A DNA stretch of 64,000 nucleotides. Origin: Asanoa ishikariensis (GTDB taxonomy: Bacteria > Actinomycetota > Actinomycetes > Mycobacteriales > Micromonosporaceae). Positions 1,289 to 19,077 of the stretch are shown here, piece by piece. A program made the translations under genes and the position numbers. Location of the stretch: NCBI RefSeq assembly GCF_900107455.1, contig NZ_FNQB01000001.1:1674001-1738000 (forward strand), given 5' to 3'. Position 1 is the first letter of the stretch. Each line of letters starts with the position of its first letter. The notes beneath the pieces are model-generated. The model saw nothing but the letters and a program-made list of their open reading frames with translations, was not told the DNA's origin and searched no databases.

Positions 1289-1380
1289 ATAGTCGTACTG
1301 CCCGTCAGGTTTCGCGTTTTTCCCAGCTCACATGCAATGGGCGGAGCCGGCGGGCGTCGAACCCGCGGTCGCGGGTTAAT

Positions 1381-1601
1381 GATCCATCGACCGACGGCCC
1401 CGATGCCGGCTGGCGAGGCAGACCCAACGCGGGCGTTGGGCCTGCCTCGCGCCCACGCGGACCGCGCCCACCAAACCGTGGGTCTCCGGGGGTCGCCCCC
1501 GGAATAGGAATGACAAATCCCCACCCGGACCCTGGCCGCGCAGCGGACAGAGTCTGGGCAGGGATTTGTGGACCAAACGTGGCGGAATCTGATCCGCATT
1601 C
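1381..1601 (-). repeat. Structured dispersed repeat, copy 1
   Basis: About 220 bp shared with the segments at 14635-14857 and 18814-19003, all in the same orientation. Read on the minus strand it folds into a long interrupted hairpin (ACAAATCCC and CCC-rich arms), a perfect CCGGGGG/CCCCCGG hairpin and an AGGCAGACCCAAC/GTTGGG-type hairpin. The arm around 1535-1562 differs from the other copies, yet most changes keep pairing through GU or compensatory pairs. Just beyond its minus-strand 3' end (1343-1366) lies a tRNA-like T arm and acceptor strand: GCGGG-TTCGACG-CCCGC then CGGCTCC, which can pair with GGGGCCG at 1395-1401. Open frames through it look incidental. Confidence 0.8.
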
Positions 1602-4677: not shown

Positions 4678-4983
4678 GTGGTGATATCAGTTGCGGATGA
4701 TGTAATGAAGCTGTTGGCGGATCCGCTCCGCGCGCACATCGTGCGACTGCTCGCCGAGGGCCCGGCTTGCACGTGTCATCTGGTGGCTGACACCGGCGCG
4801 ACGCAGTCGAACGTGTCGAACCATCTTCGGGCGTTGCGGCATGCGGGTGTGGTGGCCGCGGAGCCGTGGGGGCGGTTCACGTACTACCGGCTTCAGGCCG
4901 ACGTGATCGAGGCCGCCGCGGAGCAGTTGGGTGCGTTGGCGGCGCGGGCGCGGGCGACTGTGGACGCGCGGCGGGAGTGCTGA
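4678..4983 (+). CDS. arsR: ArsR/SmtB-family metalloid-responsive repressor (first copy)
   Basis: A 101-residue winged-helix protein. Residues 10-25 form the typical MKLLADPLRAHIVRLL helix, then CTCHLV at 31-36, in the place where ArsR proteins carry the metalloid-binding CVCDL segment, so Cys31 and Cys33 are the likely As(III) ligands. The recognition helix (TQSNVSNHLRAL) and beta-wing (WGRFTYYRL) follow. As(III) binding is expected to release it from DNA. It starts with GTG and its TGA stop overlaps the ATG of the aquaglyceroporin by one base, so it heads a translationally coupled arsR-aqp-arsC unit. Confidence 0.92.
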   Translation: MVISVADDVMKLLADPLRAHIVRLLAEGPACTCHLVADTGATQSNVSNHLRALRHAGVVAAEPWGRFTYYRLQADVIEAAAEQLGALAARARATVDARREC

Positions 4984-5723
4984 TGGCGTTGTGGCGCCGG
5001 GCGGTCGCCGAGCTGGTCGGCACCGCTGCGCTCGTGATCGTGGTGGTGGGCTCAGGGATCATGGCGGCGACCCTGTCACCCGATATCGGCATCGAGTTGC
5101 TCGCCAACTCGATCGCGACGGCGTTCGGGCTGGCCGTGATCATCTTGACCGTGGGGCCGGTGTCCGGAGCTCATCTGAACCCGCTGGTCTCACTCGCCGA
5201 CTGGTGGCTGGGACGGCGCAACGGATCGGGCTTGACTGCTTCGGACGTCGGCGGCTACGCGTTGGCTCAGGTGGCCGGTGCCATCGTGGGTGCGGTGGTC
5301 GCGAACGTGATGTTCGACCTGTCGCCGGTCTCGTGGTCGCAGACCGCGCGCGACGAGCCCCACCTGTGGGTCGGCGAGGTGGTCGCTACGGCGGGCCTGA
5401 TCCTGCTGATCTTCTCGCTGGCGCGCTCAGGTCGAGCGGCCGTGGCGGCGCCGGCGGTGGGTGCCTATATCGGCGCCGCGTACTGGTTCACCTCGTCGAC
5501 GAGCTTCGCGAACCCGGCTGTGGCGGTCGGGCGGGCGTTCACCGACACGTTCGCCGGGATCGCTCCCGCCTCGTTGCCGGGGTTCGTGGTGGCTGAGCTG
5601 GTGGGGTTGGTCGTCGGCGTCGGGTTGCTGGCGCTGTTGTATCCGCGGCCTGGTCAGGGTGCGGAGCAGGTGGTGCTTCCGCGTGAGGAGGAACCGGCGC
5701 CGGCCGGTCGAGGGAACGGATGA
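4983..5723 (+). CDS. aqpS: MIP-family aquaglyceroporin, likely arsenite channel
   Basis: A 246-residue membrane protein with six hydrophobic helices and the two half-helix motifs of aquaporins, NPL at 66-68 in the first and NPA at 177-179 in the second. It sits between arsR and arsC, overlapping both by a few bases. In Sinorhizobium meliloti an aquaglyceroporin (AqpS) in the same position exports arsenite made by ArsC. By analogy this channel would let As(OH)3 leave down its gradient, replacing an ArsB or Acr3 pump. The ATG at 4983 is chosen over upstream frames because translation then begins with a normal first helix. Confidence 0.9.
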   Translation: MALWRRAVAELVGTAALVIVVVGSGIMAATLSPDIGIELLANSIATAFGLAVIILTVGPVSGAHLNPLVSLADWWLGRRNGSGLTASDVGGYALAQVAGAIVGAVVANVMFDLSPVSWSQTARDEPHLWVGEVVATAGLILLIFSLARSGRAAVAAPAVGAYIGAAYWFTSSTSFANPAVAVGRAFTDTFAGIAPASLPGFVVAELVGLVVGVGLLALLYPRPGQGAEQVVLPREEEPAPAGRGNG

Positions 5724-6139
5724 ACGCGATGACCGATAGCAAGCCGAGCGTGTTGTTCGTGTGCGTGCACAACGCCGGCAGGTCGCAGATGGCCGCCGGG
5801 TGGCTGCGGCATCTCGCCGGCGACCAGGTGCTGGTGCGGTCGGCGGGTTCGGCGCCGACTGAGCAGATCAACCCGGTCGCTGTCGAGGCGATGCGGGAGG
5901 TCGGCATCGACATCACCGGCAACATCCCGACCCTGTTGGACCACGACACCGCGTACGCGTCCGACGTGATCGTGACGATGGGCTGCGGTGACGCCTGCCC
6001 GGTCTTCCCCGGGAAGCGTTACGAGGACTGGAAGCTGGACGATCCGGCGGGGCAGGGCATCGAGTCGGTACGCCCGATCCGCGACGAGATCCGCACCCGG
6101 GTGGCGCAACTGGTCGACGAGCTCGCACCAGGCCGATGA
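5720..6139 (+). CDS. arsC: Arsenate reductase, low-MW phosphatase fold (first copy)
   Basis: 139 residues. The phosphatase-type loop CVHNAGRS begins at Cys15 with Arg21 closing it, and a conserved MGCGDACPVFPGKRYEDW segment carries Cys89 and Cys93. DDPAG follows with the catalytic Asp. It reduces arsenate to arsenite. Related actinobacterial enzymes use either thioredoxin or mycothiol/mycoredoxin for electrons, and the sequence alone does not settle which applies. Its ATG overlaps the aqp stop, giving a direct reductase-to-channel pairing. Its own TGA overlaps the ATG of a truncated flavoprotein remnant. Confidence 0.93.
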   Translation: MNAMTDSKPSVLFVCVHNAGRSQMAAGWLRHLAGDQVLVRSAGSAPTEQINPVAVEAMREVGIDITGNIPTLLDHDTAYASDVIVTMGCGDACPVFPGKRYEDWKLDDPAGQGIESVRPIRDEIRTRVAQLVDELAPGR

Positions 6140-6210
6140 CCCGGCTCGTCATCGTCGGTGGCAGCGACGCCGGGATCAGCGCCGGGCCTGGGTTGACATC
6201 ACCAAGATAG
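6136..6210 (+). pseudogene. N-terminal remnant of an FAD-dependent disulfide oxidoreductase
   Basis: Only 24 codons remain, starting MTRLVIVGGSDAGISA. This is the first beta strand and GxGxxG-type dinucleotide-binding turn of pyridine-nucleotide disulfide oxidoreductases, which are often the next gene after arsC. The frame then runs straight into TTGACATCACC and stops. The ATGA overlap with arsC shows it was once the fourth gene of the operon. A deletion or rearrangement joined it to the promoter of the next operon, whose -35 box (6193) now lies inside it. Confidence 0.75.
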
Positions 6211-6233
6211 CTCAGTAATCATTGAGTCAATGA
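6193..6233 (+). promoter_or_regulatory. Leaderless promoter with ArsR-type palindrome over the start codon
   Basis: TTGACA (6193-6198), a 17-bp spacer and TAATCA (6216-6221) form a good sigma-70 promoter. A perfect 15-bp palindrome, TCATTGAGTCAATGA, covers 6219-6233. The ATG of the next gene (6230-6232) is inside the palindrome, about 8 nt after the -10 box, so the transcript should be leaderless. A repressor here would block both RNA polymerase and the +1 site. The ArsR domain of the downstream fusion protein is the natural candidate. Confidence 0.65.
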
Positions 6234-6913
6234 ATGCTGAGCAGATGGATGTTGCTGCGCGGGCCCGGGTGCATGCCGCGCTCGGTGACCCGGCCCGCCT
6301 CGCGATCGTCGACACGCTGGTCCTCGGCGACGCCTCACCCGGTGAGCTCGCCGAGGCCCTCGACATGCCGACCAACCTGGTCGCCCACCACCTCAAGGTG
6401 CTGCGAGACGCGCACCTCGTCGGCCGGTCCCGGTCAGAGGGCGACCGGCGCCGCACCTACCTGCGGCTCGTGCCGGAAACCCTCGCCGCGATCGCGACCC
6501 CGTCCGTGCCGACCGCGCGACGGGTGGTCTTCGTGTGCACCCACAACTCCGCCCGCTCCCAACTCGCGGCAGCGCTGTGGGCCACGGCCAGCGCCGTCCC
6601 GACCGCCTCTGCCGGCACCGAGCCGGCCGAGCGGGTGCACCCGCGGGCCGTCTCGGTCGCCCGGCGTCACGGGTTGAGAATCGATCCCCGCCAGACCGCG
6701 CACGTCTCCGATGTCGTCCAGGACGGCGACCTCGTGGTCTCGGTCTGCGACAACGCCCACGAACACCTGACGCCAGCAGGCGGGCCACGGCTGCACTGGT
6801 CGGTTCCCGACCCCGCGCCGGCCGACACGGACGCGGCGTTCGAGTCAGCCTTCACCGAAATCGCCGACCGCGTCGCGCGGCTGGCACCCATCGTTCCGGG
6901 AGACGACCGATGA
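6230..6913 (+). CDS. ArsR repressor fused to a low-MW phosphatase/arsenate-reductase domain
   Basis: 227 residues in two domains. Residues 1-85 are an ArsR-type winged helix (GDPARLAIVDTL; recognition helix around NLVAHHLKVL) without the usual Cys pair. Residues 97-225 are a phosphatase-like domain with CTHNSARS from Cys103 to Ser110. This domain lacks the GCGDAC segment of the neighbouring ArsC proteins. The fusion could sense arsenate, or act as both reductase and regulator. It is leaderless and its start lies inside a palindrome. It overlaps the next arsC by 4 nt. Similar fusions occur in actinobacteria, but their chemistry is poorly described as far as I know. Confidence 0.88.
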   Translation: MNAEQMDVAARARVHAALGDPARLAIVDTLVLGDASPGELAEALDMPTNLVAHHLKVLRDAHLVGRSRSEGDRRRTYLRLVPETLAAIATPSVPTARRVVFVCTHNSARSQLAAALWATASAVPTASAGTEPAERVHPRAVSVARRHGLRIDPRQTAHVSDVVQDGDLVVSVCDNAHEHLTPAGGPRLHWSVPDPAPADTDAAFESAFTEIADRVARLAPIVPGDDR

Positions 6914-7578
6914 CCGACACGAGCATCTGTCTCCGCGCCAGCATCCCGGTCGACCAACGGCTTGCCCTGCGCACTGCGACCGTCCGCCTCGCCGACGACT
7001 TCGCCGGCGTCTACGGCGCCGAGACCATCGAACGGTTCCTGCACTCCAGCTACGACCAGTTCGCCAGCGCCAGCGCCAGCACCGTGCCGCACTTCCTGCC
7101 ACTGCTCGCCGAGCGGTTCGCCCGGCAGCGCCTGACCGCCCTGGCCCGGGTTGAAGGCCTGCGCACCGACGGCCGGCCCGTCGTGCTGTTCCTGTGCGTC
7201 CACAATGCCGGGCGCAGCCAGATGGCGCTGGGCGTCTTCCAGCACCTCGCCGGCGACCAGGCCGTGGCGTGGTCGGGCGGCTCGGAGCCGGGGTTCGCCG
7301 TCAACCCGGCCGCTATCGCCGCCATGGGCGAGCGTGGCATCGACATCTCGGGCGAATACCCCAAGCCGTGGACCGACGAAGTCGTCCGCGCCGCCGATGT
7401 CGTGGTCAGCATGGGCTGCGGCGACGCCTGCCCGATCTTCCCCGGCAAGCGCTACGAGGACTGGGTCCTCGACGACCCGGCCGGCCTGACCGTCGAGGAC
7501 GTTCGCCCGGTCCGGGACGAGATCGAACGCCGCGTACGAGCGCTCCTCGCCGAGCTGAACGTGCCCGCTCAGCGATAA
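6910..7578 (+). CDS. arsC: Arsenate reductase with N-terminal helical domain (second copy)
   Basis: 222 residues. Residues 1-80 form an all-helical extension (VDQRLALRTATVRLADDF..., YDQFASASAS). A standard ArsC domain follows, with CVHNAGRS from Cys96, Arg102, the MGCGDACPIFPGKRYEDW segment and DDPAG. Corynebacterium glutamicum has an arsenate reductase with a comparable three-helix N-terminal bundle. It is coupled by ATGA to the ArsR fusion, so sensor and reductase are made together. It is distinct from the single-domain ArsC upstream, giving the locus two reductases that could use different electron donors. Confidence 0.9.
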   Translation: MTDTSICLRASIPVDQRLALRTATVRLADDFAGVYGAETIERFLHSSYDQFASASASTVPHFLPLLAERFARQRLTALARVEGLRTDGRPVVLFLCVHNAGRSQMALGVFQHLAGDQAVAWSGGSEPGFAVNPAAIAAMGERGIDISGEYPKPWTDEVVRAADVVVSMGCGDACPIFPGKRYEDWVLDDPAGLTVEDVRPVRDEIERRVRALLAELNVPAQR

Positions 7579-7684
7579 GCGCAAGCCGCAGTCACGGCTG
7601 CAGCGGGCAAAGGCAACGAGCGTCGCGCGAATCGAGAATGCGAGCGACAGGCTGTTGGCGACTCAACAGCGCCGCAGCCAACTC

Positions 7685-9062
7685 TCATTGGTGCCGAGGC
7701 AGCCACCGACCGACATAGGCACGAAGTGCAAGGAGGTCAGCGCCACCGCGGTAGCCGATGTACCCGTCAGGTCGCACCAGGATGGCAGTTGGTCCGCCGA
7801 CCCGAAGCCGAACGAGTGCGGTGGTTGCGGTCGGGTGGTCGAGCCGGTGGACGCGGAGGCGACTGGCCCTGGCGAGTTCGGCGTCGACCGGCCAACCACT
7901 GCCGCATAGGAGCAGGTGCCATCCCGGGCCAGCGGTGAGCTCGTGCAGCGTGCGGGCCGCGCCGTCTGCTGCGAGTGGCGCGTCGGGAAGGCGGTCTCCG
8001 GCGCCAACCCGGCGGGAGGATCCCGCTGGCCCCGTCGCCGACAGCGGGCTGCGGGGGTAGCCGATGTTCAACTGGGAGACCGTTCGGAAGATGGCGCCTC
8101 GCCCGCCGGCGATCTTCGCTGCGACCGGAAGCAGCGTCGGCGCGACGCGGGCGCGCGCGATCCGGACGACGGGGTTGGTCGAGGTCGCGATGGTGAACGC
8201 CCGGTCCGACATCCGCAGAACGGTTCGCCCGATGGGGGCGCGTTCTGCCGCGTATGTGTCCAGGATGGACTCTGGAGAGTCCCCAGTGAGGGTGTGGGCG
8301 AGCTTCCAGGCAAGGTTCACGGCGTCCTGGATGCCGGTGTTCATGCCCTGCGCTCCGGCCGGCGAGTGGATGTGGGCGGCGTCGCCGGCGAGAAAGATCC
8401 GTGCGGCCCGGTATCGAGCGGCGGCGCGGTGGTGGAGGCGGAAGTTCGTCATCCAGACGGGATCCCGAAGGCGGACGACGCCGTTGGTGTAGCGGTCCGC
8501 CAATATCTGGACGTCCGCCAGCGTCACCGAGGCGCCGGGATCGCTGAGCGGTCGCATCGCGAGCACCCGCCAGGCCGCCGGTGAGACGAGAGGGAAGAAG
8601 AACAGCATCCCGTCGGGAGAGACGAAGACGTGGGCTGTGCCGGGGTCGAGGCCGTCGGCGTCGGTGTCGGCCAGGACGAACGTCTGCGGGTACGAGCTTC
8701 CCTCGAACGCGATGCCCGCCAACTCACGGACTGTGCTGCGGCCACCGTCGCAGCCGACGACGTACGGCGCCTGGACATGCTCAACGGGGCCGTCGTGGTG
8801 CCGCAACGTTGCCTTCACGGATGCCGCGTCCTGGCTGAGCTCGGTCAGCTCGACCCCGCGTTCGACCTCGACGCCCCGGGCGTGGAGGTGGTCGGTGAGG
8901 ATCTGCTCCGTGTGGGCCTGGGACAGGAACTCGTGACTCACGTGCCCGGTCCTGGTTGCGGTCGACGATGCGCGGTCGGGCGCCGTGGGCGACCAGTTGG
9001 GCGGCCATCGCCAGCCCGGTGGGTCCGCCACCGACCACCAGGACGTCCGGCGGTGCCGTCAC
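7685..9062 (-). pseudogene. FAD-dependent aromatic-type monooxygenase, deleted and frameshifted
   Basis: The N-terminus (from 9062) reads MTAPPDVLVVGGGPTGLAMA, a GxGxxG FAD site, and proceeds to DRARESR near 8935. The family match then continues only in another frame, from HEFLSQAHTEQILTDHL to the C-terminus. Roughly 60-70 residues that family members have between these points are missing. The rest is intact: GCDGGRS, the FLAGDAAHIHSPAGAQGMNTG FAD motif and a C-terminal thioredoxin-like region ending at 7685. Such enzymes hydroxylate phenolic compounds or antibiotics. The deletion plus shift at about 8935 makes this a recent pseudogene inside the ars island. Confidence 0.82.
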
Positions 9063-9092
9063 CCGCTCATCGTAAAGACGGTTCGCGGCCGG

Positions 9093-9476
9093 TCACACCG
9101 GCTGGACGGCCGCCGCCTCGTCGAACGCGAGCAGCGCGGCGAGCTGGCGCATGATGCCTGGCCGAGCGCGGTAGTAGACCCACGTACCGCGGCGTTCGCC
9201 GTCGATGAGGCCCGCCTCGCGCAGCGTCTTGAGATGGTGCGAGATCGTCGGCCCGGACAGCTCGAACGCCGGCGTCAGGTCACACACGCACGCCTCGCCG
9301 CCGTCGGCCGAGGCGATCATCGACATCAACTGAAGCCGGACCGGATCGCCGAGTGCTTTGAAGGCGGGCGCGAGGACGGCGGCCGTCTCGGCCGGTATCC
9401 GGCTCACAGCCAGGGGTGGGCAGCACGGCGTGTCCGCGTTGAGGTCGATCACCGGCAGCGCCGCTTGCTTAGACAT
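9093..9476 (-). CDS. arsR: ArsR/SmtB repressor with N-terminal CC and CVC motif (second copy)
   Basis: 127 residues: a short N-terminal extension with Cys18-Cys19, then an ArsR winged helix with ACVCDLTPAF (Cys63, Cys65), recognition helix ISHHLKTLREAGL and wing GTWVYYR. A three-Cys site made of an N-terminal CC pair and a helix-3 Cys is known from C. glutamicum-type ArsR, so As(III) sensing is a good inference. It is divergent from the CC-peptide/M28/arsN operon. The shared 170-bp intergenic region carries an operator-like sequence also present before the flavoprotein gene at 11993. Confidence 0.92.
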   Translation of the reverse strand: MSKQAALPVIDLNADTPCCPPLAVSRIPAETAAVLAPAFKALGDPVRLQLMSMIASADGGEACVCDLTPAFELSGPTISHHLKTLREAGLIDGERRGTWVYYRARPGIMRQLAALLAFDEAAAVQPV

Positions 9477-9485
9477 GCCTCTAGG

Positions 9486-9527
9486 TTGACAGATATCGAA
9501 TCAGCGTGCAAGTCTCTGTTTAGAGAC
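9486..9527. promoter_or_regulatory. Operator region between divergent arsR and CC-peptide operon
   Basis: Positions 9486-9503, read on the minus strand, are TGATTCGATATCTGTCAA. This matches 14 of 18 bases of TGATTCGATTAGTTTCAA at 11961-11978. An adjacent perfect inverted repeat, GTCTCT-GTTT-AGAGAC, spans 9512-9527. The 18-mer lies upstream of arsR and within the divergent promoter zone. Confidence 0.6.
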
Positions 9528-9646
9528 CCATCTACTTCGAGAGTATTCAAGACAGCCTGGTGAAGGAGTGAAAGCCGGGCCCACATCGCCGCGGTCATCG
9601 GACCGCGCTGAGACCACCGACCCAAACACCGAGAAGGAGACCGATC

Positions 9647-9883
9647 ATGACCGAGACCAAGAGCGCCGGCGGATTCACTGGCAACCCTGCCGCCGCACTG
9701 TCCGTGGCTGGCACCGGCGGTTGCTGCGGCAACCCGCCCCAGGCGAACCTGTCCCTGCCGGAGCCCGACGGAGCGGCCACTAACTGCTGCGGCAGCGCAA
9801 CCGAAGCGAAGGCGGAGAACGCGTGTTGCGGCAGTGCGGCCAGGGCTGACGCGGTCGCGAGTGGATCAGGTTGCTGCGGATGA
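9647..9883 (+). CDS. Small CC-rich peptide, likely metalloid-binding
   Basis: 78 residues with four Cys-Cys pairs at 26-27, 47-48, 60-61 and 76-77, each followed by Gly. They sit in Gly/Ala/Asn/Pro-rich sequence with no predicted fold, no signal peptide and no aromatic residue except Phe10. AAGGAGACCGATC gives a strong ribosome site. It is the first gene of a run read divergently from arsR, and its TGA overlaps the ATG of the M28 peptidase. Eight thiols and the context suggest it binds As(III) or a related soft metal in the cytoplasm. I do not recognise a named family. The same CC(G/D) signature ends the flavoprotein at 11993. Confidence 0.85.
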   Translation: MTETKSAGGFTGNPAAALSVAGTGGCCGNPPQANLSLPEPDGAATNCCGSATEAKAENACCGSAARADAVASGSGCCG

Positions 9884-11094
9884 CCGCGCTCGACCAACTC
9901 CTGGCCGAGGTGTCAGGCGAACGGATGGGCGCCACGGTCGCGACCCTGGCCGGTGACGCCTTCGCCGGCCGGCGGGTCGGCACCCTGGGCGGTGCCGCCG
10001 CCCGCGCCTGGCTGAGCCGCCACCTGCAGGGCATCGGCGCGACCGTGGCGACCGAGACCTTCTCGGTGCGGGCGGTCCCCGAGATCTACGCCGTGCCGAC
10101 GGCCGAATGGAACGACGGCCCGTTGGCCTTCGGCCGCGACTTCACGCTCCATCTCGCCTCGGCCGACACCGGTCAGTCGAGGCGAGGCTCCCTGGGCGTG
10201 GCCGGCGCCGACGACCCGGCCGGACGATGGCTGCTGGTGCCGGCCGCGATGACCCTTTCCGAGGCCTACCTGCACGCCGACGGCGCGCTCGGGCTGTTGG
10301 TCGGTAGGGCCGTCGACGGGGACGGCTGGCACTTCACGATGCTGGCCGGTCCGAACCCTGGTCCGCTTCCGTTGCTCAGTGTCGCCACCGGGTTGTGGGA
10401 GCGGCTGTTCGACGCGGCCGGTGAGAGCTTCTCGGCGAACACGCCGATCCGCAGGATCGACGTGACCGGCACGAACATCCACGGCCGCCTGCGCACGGCC
10501 GCACCGGGTGGTGCGGACCTGTTGTTGACCGCGCATTACGACGGCGTGGGCGATTACCCGGGTCTACGTCAGAGTGCGGCGGCCGACAACGGCAGCGGCG
10601 TAGCCGTGGTCTGCGAGGCAGCGCGAATTATTGCCGCCGGGCTCCCGGCAGAGGTCGGGCTCTCGGTCGCGCTCGTCGACGGCGAGGAGACCGGCGCCCT
10701 CGGCTCGGCGCATCACGCGGCGCAGCTCAGCACGAGGAACGACCGACCGCTGGTGATCAACGTCGACGGCGCCGGCTGCCTGCACGAGGCCGCCGCCATC
10801 GAGGCGGGCGGCCCGGCACACGGCATCCTCGCCGTGCTCGACCAGGCCGCGAGGCACACCGGGCTGCCGCTGACCGCCGGGCCGGTCGCCTCCGACAACC
10901 GCCGCTATGCCGCCGCCGGGCTGGCCGCAATCGGCATCGGCGCGGGCATGGCCGGCTATCACAGCCCGGCCGACACTGCGGACCGCGTGGAACCCGCGAC
11001 GATGGTCGCGATCTGCCGGCTCGTCGTCGCTACCGGGTGGCTGGCCGGGGCGGATGCGACTAAACTTTCATCGTTGATCGGCGATAGACGATGA
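9880..11094 (+). CDS. M28-family zinc metallopeptidase in the ars operon
   Basis: 404 residues without a signal peptide, so probably cytoplasmic, whereas many M28 enzymes are exported. All five co-catalytic positions are visible: His219 in TAHYDG, Asp236 in AADNGSG, Glu269-Glu270 in VDGEETG, Asp296 in NVDGAG and His361 in YHSPADTADRV, so it should be active. The family includes aminopeptidases and related amide hydrolases. It begins at the ATG overlapping the stop of the CC-rich peptide gene. That position suggests turnover of that peptide or of a thiol conjugate, but this is inference. A protease is an unexpected member of an arsenic operon. Confidence 0.88.
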   Translation: MTALDQLLAEVSGERMGATVATLAGDAFAGRRVGTLGGAAARAWLSRHLQGIGATVATETFSVRAVPEIYAVPTAEWNDGPLAFGRDFTLHLASADTGQSRRGSLGVAGADDPAGRWLLVPAAMTLSEAYLHADGALGLLVGRAVDGDGWHFTMLAGPNPGPLPLLSVATGLWERLFDAAGESFSANTPIRRIDVTGTNIHGRLRTAAPGGADLLLTAHYDGVGDYPGLRQSAAADNGSGVAVVCEAARIIAAGLPAEVGLSVALVDGEETGALGSAHHAAQLSTRNDRPLVINVDGAGCLHEAAAIEAGGPAHGILAVLDQAARHTGLPLTAGPVASDNRRYAAAGLAAIGIGAGMAGYHSPADTADRVEPATMVAICRLVVATGWLAGADATKLSSLIGDRR

Positions 11095-11095
11095 A
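11067..11095. promoter_or_regulatory. Inverted repeat before the third arsR
   Basis: TTCATCGT (11067-11074) and its exact complement ACGATGAA (11088-11095) flank 13 bp at the end of the M28 gene, 12 nt before the GTG of the next ArsR. It is a candidate autoregulatory operator. Confidence 0.45.
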
Positions 11096-11106
11096 GATGG
11101 TGGATC

Positions 11107-11439
11107 GTGGCCGAACTACTCGACCGGGCCGTCGCCACGGAGTACGCCTCGTGGTTCCGCGTCCTGGCGGATCCGACCCGGGTCCAGATCGTGGAGTACC
11201 TGGCGCGCCAAGCGCGCCCGATGCCGGTCGGCGAGATCGTCGAAGCGGTGGGGTTGGCCCAGTCGACGGTGTCGCAGCACCTCAAGGTGCTCACCGAGGT
11301 CGGGTTCGTGCGGGTCGAGCCGGTCGGCAACGCGCGTCACTACCGGATCAACCAGAACTGCGTGGACTGCTTCCCGTCGGCGGCCGACGTCGTCATGGGC
11401 CGGCCCGCCCCGATCCCGACGGGAGGCTGCGAATGCTGA
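11107..11439 (+). CDS. arsR: ArsR-family repressor with C-terminal Cys cluster (third copy)
   Basis: 110 residues, GTG start. Winged helix with LADPTRVQIVEYL, recognition helix QSTVSQHLKVL and wing NARHYR. It lacks the helix-3 Cys pair; instead its cysteines are C-terminal: Cys85 and Cys88 (CVDC) and Cys108 and Cys110 (CEC). This is another sensor-site layout in the same locus, after the CxC type (4678) and CC+CVC type (9093). ArsR sensors have repeatedly evolved Cys sites at different positions, so a metalloid inducer is likely. Its stop overlaps the arsN1 start (ATGCTGA). Confidence 0.88.
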   Translation: MAELLDRAVATEYASWFRVLADPTRVQIVEYLARQARPMPVGEIVEAVGLAQSTVSQHLKVLTEVGFVRVEPVGNARHYRINQNCVDCFPSAADVVMGRPAPIPTGGCEC

Positions 11440-11921
11440 TCCGCTCGATGGACGTCGGCGACGCCGACGCGGTCCTGCGCATCTACCAGGCCGGCCTCGA
11501 CACCGGTCACGCCAGCTTCGAGGTGACCGCGCCGACCTGGGCGACCTTCGACGCCGCACGGCTGCCCGAGCACCGGCACGTCGCCGTCGACGACGAGGGA
11601 ACCGTGGTCGGCTGGATCGCGGTGTCCGCGGTCTCGAGCCGACCGGTCTACAAGGGAGTCGTCGAGCACTCCGTCTACGTCGAGCCCACCGCCGCGGGAC
11701 GAGGTGTCGCACGCTCGCTGCTGTCCGCCCTCATCGCCTCGACCGAAGCCGCCGGCATCTGGACCATCCAGTCCGGGATCTTCCCCGAGAACGCCGCGAG
11801 TCTGGCCCTGCACCGCTCGGCCGGGTTCCGCACCATCGGCACCCGAGAGCGTGTCGGCCGCCACCACGGCCGGTGGCGCGACGTGATCCTGCTCGAACGC
11901 CGCAGCCCCGCCATCAGCTAG
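11433..11921 (+). CDS. arsN1: GNAT N-acetyltransferase, ArsN1-like
   Basis: 162 residues. It shows the PAT/ArsN GNAT pattern: an N-terminal strand-helix (IRSMDVGDADAVLRIYQ), SVYVEP with the acetyl-CoA loop AAGRGVARS (about 88-95), then GIFPENAASLALHRSAGF. ArsN enzymes acetylate arsinothricin or its analogue phosphinothricin, an antibiotic amino acid mimic. The setting between an ArsR and a flavoprotein supports that over a generic GNAT role, though the substrate is not proven. The start is the ATG at 11433, overlapping the arsR stop. Confidence 0.85.
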   Translation: MLIRSMDVGDADAVLRIYQAGLDTGHASFEVTAPTWATFDAARLPEHRHVAVDDEGTVVGWIAVSAVSSRPVYKGVVEHSVYVEPTAAGRGVARSLLSALIASTEAAGIWTIQSGIFPENAASLALHRSAGFRTIGTRERVGRHHGRWRDVILLERRSPAIS

Positions 11922-11960
11922 ACCCCGCGATGCCAAGCCCAGCGCCGAACTCTGACCAGT

Positions 11961-11978
11961 TGATTCGATTAGTTTCAA
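11961..11978 (+). promoter_or_regulatory. Candidate ArsR operator upstream of the flavoprotein gene
   Basis: TGATTCGATTAGTTTCAA, an imperfect TTGA...TCAA-type dyad 14 bp before the GTG at 11993. It shares 14 of 18 bases with the site in front of the divergent arsR at 9476, implying one repressor controls both. It lies in a 70-bp gap, the only substantial break in the downstream half of the run. Confidence 0.6.
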
Positions 11979-11992
11979 GACAAGGAGACATC

Positions 11993-13384: not shown

Positions 13385-13388
13385 ACCG

Positions 13389-14636
13389 ATGGCTACACCA
13401 ACCCGCACGGCCGCCGACCCCACGGTCGGCGGCCCGGGGCTGGCCTTCCACGGCTGGCGGATCGTCGCCGTCTTCGCCATCACCCAGACCATCGGCTACG
13501 GCACCCTCTACTACGCCTTCGCCGTCCTGCTCCACCCGATAGCCGTCGACCTGCACGCGTCACCCGCAGCCGTCACCGGCGCCCTCACCACCGCGATCCT
13601 GGCCTGGGCCGCGGCTGCCGTACCCGTCGGACGATGGCTCGACCGCCACGGCGGCCGCGCCATCATGACCACCGGAGCGGCCGCCGGTGCCCTGCTGCTC
13701 GTCGCCTGGTCCCAGGTCCACAGCGTCACCCAGCTCTACCTCGTGTTCGCAGGCCTAGGTGTCGCGATGGCGATGGCCCTCTACGAGCCGGCGACCGCGG
13801 TCATCGTGTCCTGGTTCGACCCCGCGCGCCGGTCACGCGCCCTGCTAGCCATGATCGTCGTAGCCGGGTTCGCCAGCACGATATTCATGCCCCTGACCGG
13901 ATACCTCGAAAGCCGTCACGGCTGGCGCACCACCCTGCTCATCCTCGCCGCCGTGTACGCGGCCACCGCCATCCCGCTGCACGCCACGGTCGTCCGCCGC
14001 CCACCCCACGCCCGTCCGAGCGCGCGACCCGCAGCCGACAAGGCCCGAGCAGACATCGTCCGAGCCGCCCGCCGCGATCCCCGATTCTGGTTCCTCGCCG
14101 TCGCGTTCATCGCACACAGCGCCGCGATGAGCACCATGACCGTCCACCTCGTCGGCTTCCTCACCGACGCCGGCCACCCCGCCACCTTCGCAGCCACCAT
14201 CGCCGGCCTGCTCGGCGTCCTGTCCGTCACCGGCCGCCTGCTCCTGACCGGCGCCCAGCGCCGGATCTCGCTCACGGCCCTGGTCGCGGCCATCTTCACC
14301 ATCCAGGCCGTCGCCGCGATCACCCTGCCGCTCCTGGCCGGCACCCGCCTGGGCGCAGCCGCCGGCGTGACCGCCTTCGGCATCGGTTTCGGCGTGGCCA
14401 GCCTCGCCGCACCCGCCCTGCTCGCCGACCGCTACGGCACCAGCGCGTACGCCACGATCGCCGGAACCCTCGCCGCCCCCGTAACCCTCGCGAAAGCGGC
14501 AGCGCCCCTCGGCGCCGCCGCCCTGCTCGCCGCAACCGGTGGCTACCCGCCCCTGCTGGCGGCCATCGGCGTCGCGTGCGTCATCGCCGCCGCCGGCATC
14601 CTTGCCCGCGCCCGAACGCCAGCCCCGCGTCGCTGA
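13389..14636 (+). CDS. MFS transporter, probable exporter of an arsenic compound
   Basis: 415 residues with 12 predicted membrane helices, a central basic loop around 195-225 (RRPPHARPSARP) and the helix 2-3 loop motif GRWLDRHGGR. It begins 4 nt after the flavoprotein stop, so the two are co-translated. MFS members in ars clusters export organic or phosphorylated arsenicals (ArsJ, for example). Here an acetylated or oxidised product is plausible but unproven. Its stop codon coincides with the first bases of structured repeat copy 2, so the C-terminus may have been trimmed by whatever placed the repeat. Confidence 0.85.
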   Translation: MATPTRTAADPTVGGPGLAFHGWRIVAVFAITQTIGYGTLYYAFAVLLHPIAVDLHASPAAVTGALTTAILAWAAAAVPVGRWLDRHGGRAIMTTGAAAGALLLVAWSQVHSVTQLYLVFAGLGVAMAMALYEPATAVIVSWFDPARRSRALLAMIVVAGFASTIFMPLTGYLESRHGWRTTLLILAAVYAATAIPLHATVVRRPPHARPSARPAADKARADIVRAARRDPRFWFLAVAFIAHSAAMSTMTVHLVGFLTDAGHPATFAATIAGLLGVLSVTGRLLLTGAQRRISLTALVAAIFTIQAVAAITLPLLAGTRLGAAAGVTAFGIGFGVASLAAPALLADRYGTSAYATIAGTLAAPVTLAKAAAPLGAAALLAATGGYPPLLAAIGVACVIAAAGILARARTPAPRR

Positions 14637-14857
14637 TCCATCGACCGACGGCCCCGATGCCGGCACGCGAGTTAGACCCAACGCGGGCGTTGGGTCTGCC
14701 TCGCGCCCAGGCGGACCGCGCCCACCAAACCGTGGGGCGTCCGGGGGTCGCCCCTGGAACAGGAATGACAAATCCCCACCCAATCCCTGGCCGCGCGGCG
14801 GACAGGGTTTTGGGCAGGGATTTGTGGACCCAATGTGGCGGAATCCGAACCGCATTC
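14635..14857 (-). repeat. Structured dispersed repeat, copy 2
   Basis: Collinear with copy 1 over its whole length, including the outer segment GTGGCGGAATC..GAACCGCATTC that copy 3 lacks. It begins at the stop codon of the MFS gene and has no tRNA-like T arm on that side. The left half of the AGGCAGACCC hairpin has drifted, while the CCGGGGG/CCCCTGG and ACAAATCCC hairpins remain. Confidence 0.8.
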
Positions 14858-15171
14858 CAGCAGCTCACGGCCAGTTCGTGACCGTCGCTCCCGTCCGGAG
14901 CCGGCGCTTTGTAGCCGATCGCGGCGCAAGTACGAACCCTCGGTCGCCCGCCAAGTCTGGGATGGGTTGCCGCAGGCGGTGATCTAGTGGTCGCGGCCGC
15001 GGCATGGCTCACTGGCTTGGTCTGTGACGGTGAGCCGCGACGCTTCATGTCGCTCCGCAGGCCTTAGCCGCAACGCACTCTCATGCCGATGTGGGTGCTC
15101 GCTGGCAAATAACCAAGCAACACCCGCTGAACGCAGCACGTGACCGCAGGCGTCCGGGTTCGATCAGTAAA
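14858..15171. other. Gene-free spacer between repeat copy 2 and the PHP-ATPase gene
   Basis: I see no convincing reading frame, RNA gene or strong hairpin in these 314 bases. Base composition falls toward the right as the ATPase gene is approached. The end of that gene lies at 15172. Confidence 0.5.
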
Positions 15172-18100
15172 CTATGTATCGTCTGCGTGGCCGACGACGT
15201 GATCGTATTTCAGTTCGCGATTATCGAACGCCTCGCGGGTCCCTTCCAACACGTCAATCGTTTGCATGCCGATGCCGTGGTGAGCCAGCGATCCCGACGA
15301 GTATCTGAAGGATCCTTCTGCAAAGGTCGCCGTGATCAACTGATCAGCGTCGCCAACGATGGCCAGGTTTGGGTTGTGCGTAACTGCCACCACTTGCCTG
15401 CGTGCAATCGCACTCCGGAGGGCCGGGATGAGGAGGTGACGCACAGTCTGGTTGTCAAGATTTTCCTCTGGCTGGTCGAGCAGGAGCGGGCGATCCGAGG
15501 CGTCGACCAGCAGGTAGAACATGAGAAGTACAAGACCCCGCTGGCCTGGTGAAAGTTCAGACAGTTCGCGTCCCGAGGACCGGATCACGTACTGGCCGTC
15601 CAGCCAGCGCAGCCCGTAGAGCGCTGAGAGCAGGTCATCGGCCTTGTGCGCAGAGCGCATGATCGACGAAAGCGTTCTCGAGGATCCGTCGTTTGCGCCC
15701 TTCTCAGATGCAAGCCGGGCTTCGATCCTGTGGAGAGCGCTAAAGAGCCCATCGGCAGAACTCAGATCGGCTCCGTCAAGGAGGACGTCGCGATCACCAG
15801 CATCGGCGACCTCAGGGAACTCGCCGAGCCTTTGCCTGTTCACCATTTCGATCCATGAGATCAAGAAGTCGCGAGGTCTAAGCTCAACTCCAAACTCCAA
15901 ACCTACCTGCTGACACAGTTCACTACCGGCAACAAACTCGGTTGCACCGGCATACGCCTCGCGTTGGGCGCCAAAGATCTCCATGAAGGCGTCGTGTACC
16001 TCCTGAAACGAGGCCCGAAGCTGGGCGCGTGCGGCAGCATACTGCTGCGGGATCGTGTCGCGCTGCGCCACGAGAGCTTGTAACCCGAGCATCGAATCGG
16101 CCTTGCTTGCGTCTCCGATCAAGTGCAGCCGCCGTTCGTCTAAGTCAGCCAGCACGGCGAGGTCCGCTTCGGTCCCAGCAGCGTGTTCCCGGAGCTTCTC
16201 GTCAATTTCTGCGATCTCTCGACTCGCCGTTGTGGTTTGCACGATGATCCCGACCGTCGGATCCCCTAGCTCCGACTGCCGTGTTCGACGTTGTTCCTCG
16301 ATATCTCGAACCGACCGGTCGAGCAAATCGTGGCTGATCGTCGACTGGAAGAAAGCTGCAACATCAACGTCAAGGAGAGGCGCCAGACTGTTGGCATGCC
16401 CTTCCGCAACCTTAACAGCGTCCACCAGTCGCCTACGAACATCATTGATACTTCGCAACCGGCTGGTGGACTCGGCGATTAGCTTCGTGAGCTTCTTCTG
16501 TGCAATTTGCAGACCGTCACGCCGACGCACAGACTCGTCACGGCGCTTCGAGAGATCTTCGGTGACTGTTCCAGCGAGTCGATGCCGTTCGTCTAGCGAG
16601 GTCTTCAGGATTCCGATCTGCGCCTCGACGGCAGCTATCTGCTCCTGAACAACGGCTAGTCGACTGTCGAGATCCAGCGCCAGCAGCCGACCCTGGTCGG
16701 TTTCCAAATCGATCACCGTCGTGGCCGCCGCATGCAGACGCCCCCGGGCGGTTGCAAGCTTCTCCCGCGAATACTTTGATTGTCGGTCGACGAAGTCGCG
16801 GAGGGACACTGCATCTCCGCGGTCAGTGGCAGGCACATGCCGAAAGACGACCTGCTCGATCTCGCGCTCGAACTGCCGCTTTTCGACGCTGTCCGGGTCG
16901 GCCGAGCAGACGCGCTCGATGAGAGACTGTGGCAGGTAGTCGACGCGAACTGGCTCGCTCGGAACAAACGCCTGGTCGAGCAGGATCTCGCGTGACGTGC
17001 CATCTTGCCATTCCAGGACGGCCTCGTACTCGCGTGCTTCCCGGCCACGGTTGCGTAGGAACCGTGTGTCCGTCAGGAAGGAAAAGTCGTCGTGCCGATC
17101 GCTGTTGGCTGAGGCAGCTATGACATCTAGCAACGCTGACTTGCCCTGGCCTTTGTTGCCAAGTACGACGGTGAAACCGGGGTTGAGTGGGACTTCGCAG
17201 CCAAACAGCGAATGGCCTTCGGCCCGGTTGCCCCTCTTTCGAATGCTGACTCGATCGATGATCGAGTCAGGCTTAGTGGCTAGGCGGTCGAGGACCGTCG
17301 GCCGCGGAGCGACTGTCACGCGATCGTCGTATTCACGTAGCGCGTGGCGAAGACCCTTGAAGGTTGGGTCGGCGTTGATCCACGTCAGGCAGTTCCCGAG
17401 GCGATCCTTTTCCGAGCTGGCCGTCCATGTGTGAGCGTCGCTGCAATCGATTAGTTTGCTGTTCACACGCTTCTCCGTGAGGGCAAGACGGCTCGCCACA
17501 AATTCATCTCGACTGGCTGCTGCTGTGAAGACGGCGTCCGCCGTGTTCAGGAGTGTCTTTTTGGTGGCGATCGACTGATCATTCCATTTGATGGAAGCCC
17601 ATTCGGTCTTTCCGACGGCGAGAATTACGCGGGATTCAAGCAATGTGTTATGCCTGACCGCATCCACGGCTCGATCGAACGGCACACAGATGCTGTTGAA
17701 CCCTTCCTGCCTATTGCTTCCGAAGCGTGACAATTCCGATTTCGGCACTTGCCCTTTGATCTTTGCGCCGAGGTCCTCCATGGACTCAAGGCTTACCGCT
17801 TGACTCCACTCCTGATACGGGTCGTCGTCGTGGAGCCGGTAGGTCGGCCGCAGCGGCCCAATCAACTGAGTCTTGATCACCTCAACCTGCAGTCCCGGAT
17901 CGCAGATGAAGTGGAGGTTGATCCTTCGAAGTTTTCCCTCGGTGCCACCGAAATTGTCGCACCGAATCTCCAGTACGGGGAAAACCGCCGCCAAATTCGG
18001 CAGGTGGCCTGATTCGAACTCCCGACGAACGCGTTCGTAGCCGTCGAGAAACCAATAGTCGTTGATCCCGATGACGCTGAGATCGGGCGGGAGTGCCGCG

Positions 18101-18213
18101 AGTTCGGTGAGAAATCGATCCCAGGGGTCAGCGCCACTGTAGCGATGATGGAGGGATTCCGGCGTATGCACATGAAGATCCCACATCCGCCACTCGGTCC
18201 CGCGCTCGAACAA
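15172..18213 (-). CDS. PHP-domain/SMC-like ATPase (TrlF type), probable defence protein
   Basis: 1013 residues. The N-terminal PHP metal-hydrolase part has DLHVHTP (His14, His16), INDYW (Asp52) and CSDAH (257-261). An ABC/SMC-type ATPase follows: Walker A GNKGQGKS (352-359), a long coiled-coil middle (about 490-700), signature LSPGQRG (887-893), Walker B LLLDQPEENLDN (to 921) and switch His946. This layout matches proteins annotated as TrlF-family AAA-like ATPases, in the RloC/SMC-like nuclease world. The gene is visibly less GC-rich than its surroundings, stands alone and lies between repeat copies. This suggests recent transfer and an anti-phage or anti-plasmid role; the nuclease target is unknown. 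Confidence 0.85.
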   Translation of the reverse strand: MFERGTEWRMWDLHVHTPESLHHRYSGADPWDRFLTELAALPPDLSVIGINDYWFLDGYERVRREFESGHLPNLAAVFPVLEIRCDNFGGTEGKLRRINLHFICDPGLQVEVIKTQLIGPLRPTYRLHDDDPYQEWSQAVSLESMEDLGAKIKGQVPKSELSRFGSNRQEGFNSICVPFDRAVDAVRHNTLLESRVILAVGKTEWASIKWNDQSIATKKTLLNTADAVFTAAASRDEFVASRLALTEKRVNSKLIDCSDAHTWTASSEKDRLGNCLTWINADPTFKGLRHALREYDDRVTVAPRPTVLDRLATKPDSIIDRVSIRKRGNRAEGHSLFGCEVPLNPGFTVVLGNKGQGKSALLDVIAASANSDRHDDFSFLTDTRFLRNRGREAREYEAVLEWQDGTSREILLDQAFVPSEPVRVDYLPQSLIERVCSADPDSVEKRQFEREIEQVVFRHVPATDRGDAVSLRDFVDRQSKYSREKLATARGRLHAAATTVIDLETDQGRLLALDLDSRLAVVQEQIAAVEAQIGILKTSLDERHRLAGTVTEDLSKRRDESVRRRDGLQIAQKKLTKLIAESTSRLRSINDVRRRLVDAVKVAEGHANSLAPLLDVDVAAFFQSTISHDLLDRSVRDIEEQRRTRQSELGDPTVGIIVQTTTASREIAEIDEKLREHAAGTEADLAVLADLDERRLHLIGDASKADSMLGLQALVAQRDTIPQQYAAARAQLRASFQEVHDAFMEIFGAQREAYAGATEFVAGSELCQQVGLEFGVELRPRDFLISWIEMVNRQRLGEFPEVADAGDRDVLLDGADLSSADGLFSALHRIEARLASEKGANDGSSRTLSSIMRSAHKADDLLSALYGLRWLDGQYVIRSSGRELSELSPGQRGLVLLMFYLLVDASDRPLLLDQPEENLDNQTVRHLLIPALRSAIARRQVVAVTHNPNLAIVGDADQLITATFAEGSFRYSSGSLAHHGIGMQTIDVLEGTREAFDNRELKYDHVVGHADDT

Positions 18214-18775
18214 CGTCTTCGGCCCCTTTGCTTACGTCACATAAAGCGAGATCGGTTCTATCACCTCGGCAACCGCCGCATCCGCCATGTCCATTTTGCG
18301 CTTTATATGCGTGTTGCTCCGAGAATTAGTGAAAGAGACTCGTATAATTACGAGCATCGCTGGTGTTGTCCCTAGAGGTTTCACCACTCTGGTGGCCACG
18401 CAGTTGGTCGAGGGTGGCAAACGCCAGCGTTCGATCGCTCCACGAAAGATCGAGCATTCGGCTGAATTATTAGCCGTTAAGGCGAAAGTCTCTCTGTAAC
18501 GAGACTCTCGTGCCGTCGAGGCCGCTGCTGTCCCGAGCCGGTGAGCGGAGGGCGTTGGTGCGGGCAGCGCCGACTTTGACGGTCCGGCGGCATCCGCTTC
18601 TGCCCGACTTCCACCCGTGCCGTCGGCACAGCGCGGGTCTGACCTCGCGCGGGCCGCGCACGGCGGAGGCGGTGGTGGACCGCACCCCGGTTCGCACACC
18701 GCCACATACGAGCGACGATTTCCTGTCATGCGAACCACGTATCCGCAGGTTAAGAGCGAGATCAAGTCATTGGGT
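18214..18775. other. AT-richer gene-free region upstream of the PHP-ATPase
   Basis: No convincing gene is seen. A perfect 16-bp palindrome, CTCGTATAATTACGAG, lies at 18339-18354, about 125 bp before the start of the ATPase gene. With the AT-rich stretch between them this probably holds its promoter and an operator. The right part (18480-18720) is GC-rich again and belongs to the host background. Confidence 0.45.
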
Positions 18776-18799
18776 GGAGCCAGCGGGGCTCGAACCCGC
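18776..18799 (-). repeat. tRNA-like T arm and acceptor fragment beside repeat copy 3
   Basis: On the minus strand: GCGGG-TTCGAGC-CCCGC followed by TGGCTCC-A, a T arm and 3' acceptor. No anticodon or D arm is present. GGGGCCG inside the adjacent repeat could pair with TGGCTCC with two GU pairs. The same arrangement flanks copy 1 at 1343-1366. Confidence 0.6.
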
Positions 18800-18813
18800 C
18801 TTCGAGGGCTGTT

Positions 18814-19003
18814 GATCTATCGACCGACGGCCCCGATGCCGGCCGGCGAGGCAGACCCAACGCGGGCGTTGGGTCTGCCTCGCGCCCACACGCACCGCGC
18901 CCACCAAACCGTGGGGCGTCCGGGGGTCGCCCCCGGAATAGGAATGACAAATCCCCACCCAAACCCTGGCCGCGCAGCGGACAGGGTTTGGGCAGGGATT
19001 TGT
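18814..19003 (-). repeat. Structured dispersed repeat, copy 3, fused to a tRNA 3' end
   Basis: The cleanest copy. Hairpins: 18849-18880 (perfect AGGCAGACCCAAC arms), 18920-18936 (perfect CCGGGGG/CCCCCGG) and 18947-19003 (arms ACAAATCCC-CA-CCCAAACCCTG and their complement). The last hairpin starts at the discriminator base of the adjacent tRNA, so tRNA and repeat would be one transcript read leftward. It lacks the outer 30 bp of copies 1 and 2, being replaced there by the tRNA. Confidence 0.8.
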
Positions 19004-19077
19004 GGGGTCGGCGGGACTCGAACCCGCACTGAAACGGACCTAAACCGTTTGCCTCCTGCCAATTGGGCTACGACCCC
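19003..19077 (-). tRNA. Class I tRNA with UAG anticodon (Leu-type anticodon, short variable arm)
   Basis: 75 nt. Acceptor GGGGTCG/CGACCCC is perfect; T arm GCGGG-TTCGAGT-CCCGC; anticodon stem AACGG/CCGTT with loop TTTAGGT, hence anticodon TAG; discriminator A; no encoded CCA. The D arm has a 3-bp stem with an enlarged loop carrying AATTGG. The variable region is only 5 nt, whereas bacterial tRNA-Leu is class II with a long variable arm. It reads CUA codons by anticodon, but the charging enzyme is uncertain. Confidence 0.8.

Follow-up and report, generated by a model that had tools for sequence, protein, structure and literature searches.

A structured trailer of stable-RNA genes in Micromonosporaceae and its probable displacement at a tRNA-Leu(UAG) gene of Asanoa ishikariensis

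Introduction

Three copies of a structured repeat, one of them flush against a tRNA-Leu(UAG) gene, lie in the stretch of Asanoa ishikariensis DNA analysed here (64,000 nucleotides, contig NZ_FNQB01000001.1, positions 1,674,001 to 1,738,000; hereafter the window). What is this repeat, and how did its other two copies come to lie apart from the tRNA gene? A sequence-only reading of the window had taken it for an RNA element or a tRNA-derived mobile repeat, not coding sequence. Our comparison of the window with related genomes makes it probable that the repeat contains a structured trailer of stable-RNA genes, and that its three copies there are traces of insertions at the tRNA-Leu(UAG) gene.

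Results

A four-hairpin repeat at the end of a tRNA-Leu gene

The three copies that the sequence-only reading had placed at 1381-1601 (copy 1), 14635-14857 (copy 2) and 18814-19003 (copy 3) are present there, with pairwise identities of 173/190, 177/193 and 176/194 aligned columns (about 91% over the shared ~190 nt). The order and orientation of the hairpins are fixed, as had been proposed, but there are four of them and not three: read on the minus strand, hp1 is followed by a linker, hp2, hp3, hp4 and, in copies 1 and 3, a tRNA-like tail. Stems are kept despite base changes in copy 3 and only partly in copy 1, where the stem quoted in the earlier reading has 9/11 Watson-Crick pairs, one wobble and one mismatch, whichever strand is read. 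A T arm and an acceptor strand able to pair with GGGGCCG do end two copies, namely 1 (1342-1401) and 3 (18775-18834); copy 2, which is cut short at the stop codon of an MFS gene, has no such tail. Copy 3 starts, again as described, at the discriminator base of the tRNA-Leu gene (minus strand; 19002-19077 in ARAGORN, 19003-19077 in Rfam). We define module E as hp1, counted from the tRNA discriminator base, the linker and the two near-invariant hairpins hp2 and hp3. The features are as follows.

19002..19077, minus strand: tRNA-Leu(UAG), with copy 3 as its trailer (ARAGORN; Rfam RF00005, 55.4 bits)
18948..19002, minus strand: copy 3 hp1, a long hairpin from the discriminator base (covariation, folds, alignment of copies)
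18937..18947, minus strand: copy 3 linker TCATTCCTATT, pyrimidine-rich (alignment)
18920..18936, minus strand: copy 3 hp2 CCGGGGGCGACCCCCGG, near-invariant across 22 copies
18900..18916, minus strand: copy 3 hp3 CCCCACGGTTTGGTGGG, near-invariant
18848..18881, minus strand: copy 3 hp4, found in many Asanoa copies, outside the modelled core
18775..18834, minus strand: copy 3 tail, tRNA-like, with acceptor strand and T arm and no anticodon arm
14825..14867, minus strand: conserved junction motif ending GGGTCCA, immediately before copy 2
14769..14824, minus strand: copy 2 hp1 (candidate displaced trailer)
14635..14768, minus strand: remainder of copy 2, with hp2, hp3 (14721-14737) and hp4
1569..1601, minus strand: copy 1, degenerate tRNA-3'-end-like stretch ahead of hp1
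1514..1568, minus strand: copy 1 hp1 (candidate displaced trailer)
1402..1513, minus strand: copy 1 hp2 (1486-1502), hp3 and hp4
1342..1401, minus strand: copy 1 tail, a tRNA-like stretch with no anticodon arm

The RNA fold of copy 3 has an energy of -130.8 kcal/mol (z -8.26), and 0/200 shuffles were equally stable. When copy 3 is folded together with the tRNA, the predicted structure retains the cloverleaf, places hp1 flush against the acceptor stem and takes the discriminator base into hp1. Degenerate stretches resembling a tRNA 3' end also precede hp1 in copies 1 (1569-1601) and 2 (14825-14867). Searched against Rfam at a loose threshold, the tail of copy 3 has tmRNA as its best non-tRNA match (RF00023, 26 bits, below the cut-off of 47); its other matches are weaker. 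The T-arm-like stretches resemble partial 3' ends of tRNAs, real or mimicked, where insertions joined; the tails of copies 1 and 3 may be of the same nature, possibly as a second type of tRNA-end mimic. Tails of this kind also stand behind E at three other loci (L002, L146 and, in decayed form, L164).

Module E behind tRNA and tmRNA genes

Searching related genomes, a check proposed with the earlier reading, returned further copies in five congeners and in other Micromonosporaceae. At the DNA level there were 14 matches in the genome of A. ishikariensis itself and 8-11 in each of the five congeners, partial matches and opposite-strand echoes included. Among 22 Asanoa loci that were read out, the module starts at a tRNA gene (Leu, Val, Met or Ala) in 17. 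An exact pattern of the core occurs in 31 stretches among 84,980 species genomes, a collection that may leave out the A. ishikariensis genome, and all 31 belong to genera of Micromonosporaceae. A similar pattern was found in 13/200 genomes of the family, its reversed form in none, and model R2 gave matches in 9/39; such counts are lower bounds, given exact patterns and filters. Weaker matches to part of the core occur in other families of the order, for example behind tRNA-Glu at L011, so the limit to one family belongs to the exact pattern only. A class-wide covariance scan (1/197 genomes) was uninformative, with just 19 candidates scored per genome. Phage and plasmid collections contained nothing matching copy 2 together with its junction, and the leading results among open-access papers described no such trailer or junction site.

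The genomic context was tallied for all 63 counted model matches in three genomes: 13 in A. ishikariensis (16 R1 matches, less five opposite-strand hp1 echoes, plus two found by R2 only), 27/27 in Actinoplanes sp. KI2 (G409) and 23/23 in Actinoplanes sp. TBRC 11911 (G410); a fourth genome (G411, 18 matches) and the remaining genomes searched with the models were left out of the tally. E stands directly behind an intact gene in 34/63 cases, of which 32 are tRNA and two tmRNA genes. Partial or degenerate tRNA or tmRNA 3' ends precede 13 matches (sorted by eye), protein genes or unclear sequence precede nine, six are tandem copies and one is an array member with no readable junction; the last 29 of the 63 assignments were made by eye. 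A loose regular-expression sort of the fetched loci admitted random matches, and no count rests on it. The tRNA isotypes before E comprise Ala, Arg, Asn, Glu, Gly, Ile, Leu, Lys, Met, Ser, Thr and Val. Since only about 7/77 tRNA genes of A. ishikariensis carry E (six by model and one more by eye), tRNAs have no general need of it; the E behind tRNA-Arg(ccg), seen by eye, lies below the model threshold and was kept out of the tally.

Some tRNA-Met genes have the core and no hp1 (L181, L184, L193). Competition between hp1 and the acceptor stem is conceivable at some tRNA-Gly and tRNA-Arg genes (L148, L149, L150, L159, L127), where the final bases of the tRNA acceptor strand are complementary to the 3' arm of hp1 as well. 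In genome G023, a tandem array behind tRNA-Phe (L009, L019) has units that open with the final ~9 nt of the tRNA; a hairpin and a part resembling hp2 and hp3 recur in them.

Covariation in hp1 and the character of the RNA

In an alignment of 22 copies (A2), 97.3% of the cells at paired positions are paired and 13/25 pairs have changed on both sides, all 13 of them in hp1. The covariation score of 0.243 compares with 0.102 for shuffled alignments (0/500 reach it) and at most 0.058 for slid ones; the shuffles ignore relatedness among the copies, and the slid control takes it into account. A second alignment (A3), made from 31 copies of several genera, gave the same picture, with 9/12 hp1 pairs changed on both sides, 0/500 shuffles reaching the score and the slid controls far below it. 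Covariation, which had been named as a check on the element, thus supports hp1. The pairs of hp2 and hp3 are almost invariant in both alignments, and because they hardly vary, their pairing is without proof from this source. On the tRNA strand, G.U cells exceed A.C cells (33 vs 10 and 29 vs 6, the cells not being independent). Rfam returned no family match to E, only the tRNA scoring above its cut-off.

Position, strand, hp1 covariation and the excess of G.U cells point to a transcribed trailer, as far as sequence comparison can tell. The claim of an RNA element and not a coding sequence is supported by the covariation of hp1, by the further copies in relatives and by a constant position and strand downstream of tRNA and tmRNA genes.

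It is quite possible, if short of probable, that E is an ordinary terminator family of tRNA genes, whose likeness needs no explanation beyond common descent and gene conversion. Inspected by eye, some other tRNA genes of A. ishikariensis have plain terminator-like hairpins in the position that E would occupy, and hairpin clusters are reported as termination units in PMC8355165. However, no GC-rich hairpin followed by a T-run was found at any of the three window copies, and hp2, hp3 and the linker are kept across genera beyond what a terminator would appear to need. It seems improbable that the tRNA precursor releases a regulatory RNA whose conserved active part is hp2 and hp3: such an RNA would fit near-invariant hairpins next to an hp1 that is free in sequence, but hp2 has a G run of variable length (4 to 6), which suits a structure more than a fixed seed.

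Displacement of the trailer at tRNA-Gly

At the tRNA-Gly(tcc) locus of A. ishikariensis, E has been displaced from its gene. The tRNA itself carries no E; an integrase-bearing stretch of ~17 kb, with the integrase gene beside the tRNA, separates it from a 44-nt exact duplicate of its own 3' part, and E follows that duplicate. In A. hainanensis (G003), E is directly joined to tRNA-Gly. The locus thus combines a partial tRNA repeat, an integrase and a relative in which tRNA and trailer are joined, as in a genomic island, and its simplest reading is that an insertion pushed E away from the tRNA. The common backbone lies 0.8 kb behind E in A. ishikariensis and 2.7 kb behind it in A. hainanensis, so the region behind this E has changed too.

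Similar arrangements occur in other genera. In Catenuloplanes japonicus, tRNA-Gly, E and an integrase stand at one end of an integrase-bearing stretch, and a 45-nt exact copy of the tRNA with a second E stands at the other end, ~17 kb away; with E at both ends, islands may bring their own copy. Paractinoplanes aksuensis has an intact tRNA-Gly and, ~15.6 kb from it, a partial one that carries E; an integrase lies in the interval.

Probable insertions at the tRNA-Leu locus

Backbone sequence lies ~36 kb beyond tRNA-Leu in A. ishikariensis and ~4 kb behind it in genome G002. In four congeners, the 20 kb behind tRNA-Leu contain nothing that matches positions 1.6-18.8 kb of the window at the DNA level, the E copies excepted. 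The junctions in the window are degenerate, with no long identity to the tRNA, and no PF00589 match was found in or near the window. With one mismatch, the junction motif stands directly before copy 2; the junction of copy 1 falls short of the motif even at three mismatches. The segment between copies 3 and 2 (segment A) holds two open reading frames.

18232..18765, minus strand: segment A, 177-aa ORF, no family
15172..18213, minus strand: segment A, 1013-aa ORF, AAA_21/SMC-like ATPase (Pfam)

The 1013-aa ATPase also has a partial Ppl/mad3-like match (PADLOC Ppl, E=2.2e-18). Between copies 2 and 1, positions 4866-14636 contain aquaporin-like, ArsR-type, LMW-phosphatase-type and MFS genes. This gene block (segment B) has the look of arsenic resistance, and related genes stand in congener G001 between tRNA genes carrying E (L214).

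No E adjoins the tRNA-Leu gene of A. hainanensis, which is followed instead by GGCAGTGCGCGAACCGC. Two half-sites flank the stretch beyond it, AACGTGGCAGTGCGCGAACCGC behind tRNA-Leu and the junction motif TGAGCTGCTGGAATGCGGTTCGGATTCTGCCACGTTTGGTCCA before an E 43 kb away; joined, they form a near-palindrome with 22/27 complementary positions around the centre, a value reached by 0/2000 simple shuffles in a test made after the symmetry had been noticed. The matching half-site GGCAGNNNNCGAACCGC has 12 matches in the window at up to two mismatches, which is no evidence of a site there, as shuffles give 8.6 on average. In the 43-kb stretch itself (G003:C28:636500-679200), Pfam found no recombinase domain in 29 listed ORFs (at least 120 aa, chosen by codon-position GC and non-overlap). 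It did match DUF4007, a PAPS reductase domain, a helicase, a DNA methylase, HATPase, a class-V aminotransferase, a giant ORF that is weakly NACHT-like, HSP70, GGDEF and a T4SS pilin, several of which we take to have a defence-like look.

Copies 1 and 2 of the window are probably displaced trailers, and we infer that the segments between them and the tRNA-Leu gene entered by the same route.

Junction motif and arrays in other genomes

The junction motif occurs in 45/354 genomes of the family and 8/44 genera, and the reversed pattern in none. Several contigs carry it as a series whose members all point the same way at spacings of a few kb. One such series, in G384, begins behind a tRNA-Gly/Cys/Val cluster and has E after its last member, and in G337 a stretch between two motifs contains a Ppl-like ATPase and a PifA-like NTPase. 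Thirty motif loci were looked at and 28 re-found; TCCA lies within 14 nt of the motif at 25/28 and an E-like hp2 within 150 nt at just 4/28, so the motif is not tied to E. The PF00589 gene nearest to a motif series lies ~42 kb away (G337; some contigs are short), and a tyrosine integrase fragment scoring below the cut-off adjoins one motif in G007 (C481).

A different array follows ssrA in Actinoplanes sp. KI2, where seven E copies within 13.7 kb are separated by unrelated genes: YceI; an acyltransferase; SDR and TetR; an F420 oxidoreductase and a methionyl-tRNA synthetase; and two without a family. The synthetase and the F420-dependent oxidoreductase genes lie together between two E copies (L278). 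Of the six copies not on ssrA itself, five have the junction TTCRAGTAAGC-N6-CAYCTCCACGG.

By analogy with the attC hairpin of integrons, E itself could be the DNA-level recombination site of mobile cassettes, as the KI2 array, on a contig with no PF00589 integrase, and the integrase-bearing Catenuloplanes insertion with E at both ends might suggest. We give this a low probability, as more than half of the 63 matches stand directly on an intact tRNA or tmRNA, the motif mostly occurs without E and the G.U excess favours an RNA on the tRNA strand. The tRNA-derived mobile repeat of SINE or MITE type that the sequence-only reading had suggested is very improbable despite the several copies and the tRNA-like stretches that flank copy 1, as the module is not made from tRNA, its copies stand flush on intact tRNAs of at least 12 isotypes and at least one stray copy is explained by DNA inserted between a tRNA and its trailer.

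Discussion

Our comparison favours E as a structured 3' trailer of stable-RNA genes, which in Micromonosporaceae would stand behind many tRNA genes and the tmRNA gene. Its hp1 would begin at the discriminator base and be transcribed together with the tRNA, to be followed by two short hairpins of fixed sequence. To judge from the sequence, the plainest function of such a module would be to terminate the transcript or to define the 3' end of the tRNA, and most likely E does both, acting as a U-poor multi-hairpin terminator or as a processing block. Given the lack of a T-run, the invariance of hp2 and hp3 and the discriminator base inside hp1, a role in processing or regulation is also conceivable. 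At the tRNA-Leu locus, copy 3 would be the trailer now attached to the gene, and foreign DNA that recombined into the gene end would have pushed copies 1 and 2 away.

Parts of this arrangement recall known systems. Integron cassette arrays consist of small unrelated genes in series, with direct repeats and a single anchor. The arrays described here share these traits; in contrast, no PF00589 gene, such as an IntI-type tyrosine integrase, was found nearby, and the sites are tRNA-end junctions. The rtT repeats behind tyrT of Escherichia coli likewise follow a tRNA gene and include the tRNA 3' end, and the Phe locus of G023 (L009) looks alike, whereas the only Rfam match above cut-off at E is the tRNA. 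Intrinsic terminators and hairpin clusters (PMC8355165) also place hairpins directly behind a gene; E differs in its missing T-run, its conserved hp2, hp3 and linker, and an hp1 that includes the discriminator in the predicted fold. Tycheposons, as described in PMC10872708, carry cargo at tRNA genes and use a tyrosine recombinase. Cargo at tRNA genes is common to both; no PF00589 match lies in the arrays examined here, whereas the tRNA-Gly islands have one.

A close parallel lies in the ssrA-specific islands of Dehalococcoides. As described in PMC3146451, they stand in tandem behind a stable-RNA gene with short repeats of its 3' end and a conserved motif just before each repeat, 15/31 have no integration module, and a serine recombinase has been identified. 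Tandem islands, 3'-end repeats, a motif before the repeat and an often absent integration module are thus shared, and tandem ssrA islands of which half lack such a module are already known. Compared with these islands, the loci described here differ in the range of their anchors, which include tRNA genes of several isotypes besides ssrA, and in a displaced part that includes a structured trailer. Moreover, the Leu-type junction shares few bases with the tRNA, and no recombinase was found here where Dehalococcoides has a serine recombinase.

A wider scheme is tentative, and we regard it as rather unlikely in its entirety. Micromonosporaceae might possess a tRNA-end cassette system, in which small integrase-free cassettes, some of them defence-like, recombine in trans into tRNA and tmRNA gene ends through a near-palindromic site of ~54 bp, whose centre mimics a tRNA 3' end. 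They would stack there as direct-repeat arrays, and the structured trailer would keep the tRNA 3' end working after each insertion.

Overall, E would be a structured tRNA-trailer RNA that has no Rfam entry and is common to one bacterial family. It may serve as an island marker, as a trailer found apart from any intact tRNA would point to a probable old insertion, and it makes testable how insertions into tRNA genes avoid damage. Soil actinomycetes would furthermore have a recombinase that mobilises such cargo, which is defence-like in part.
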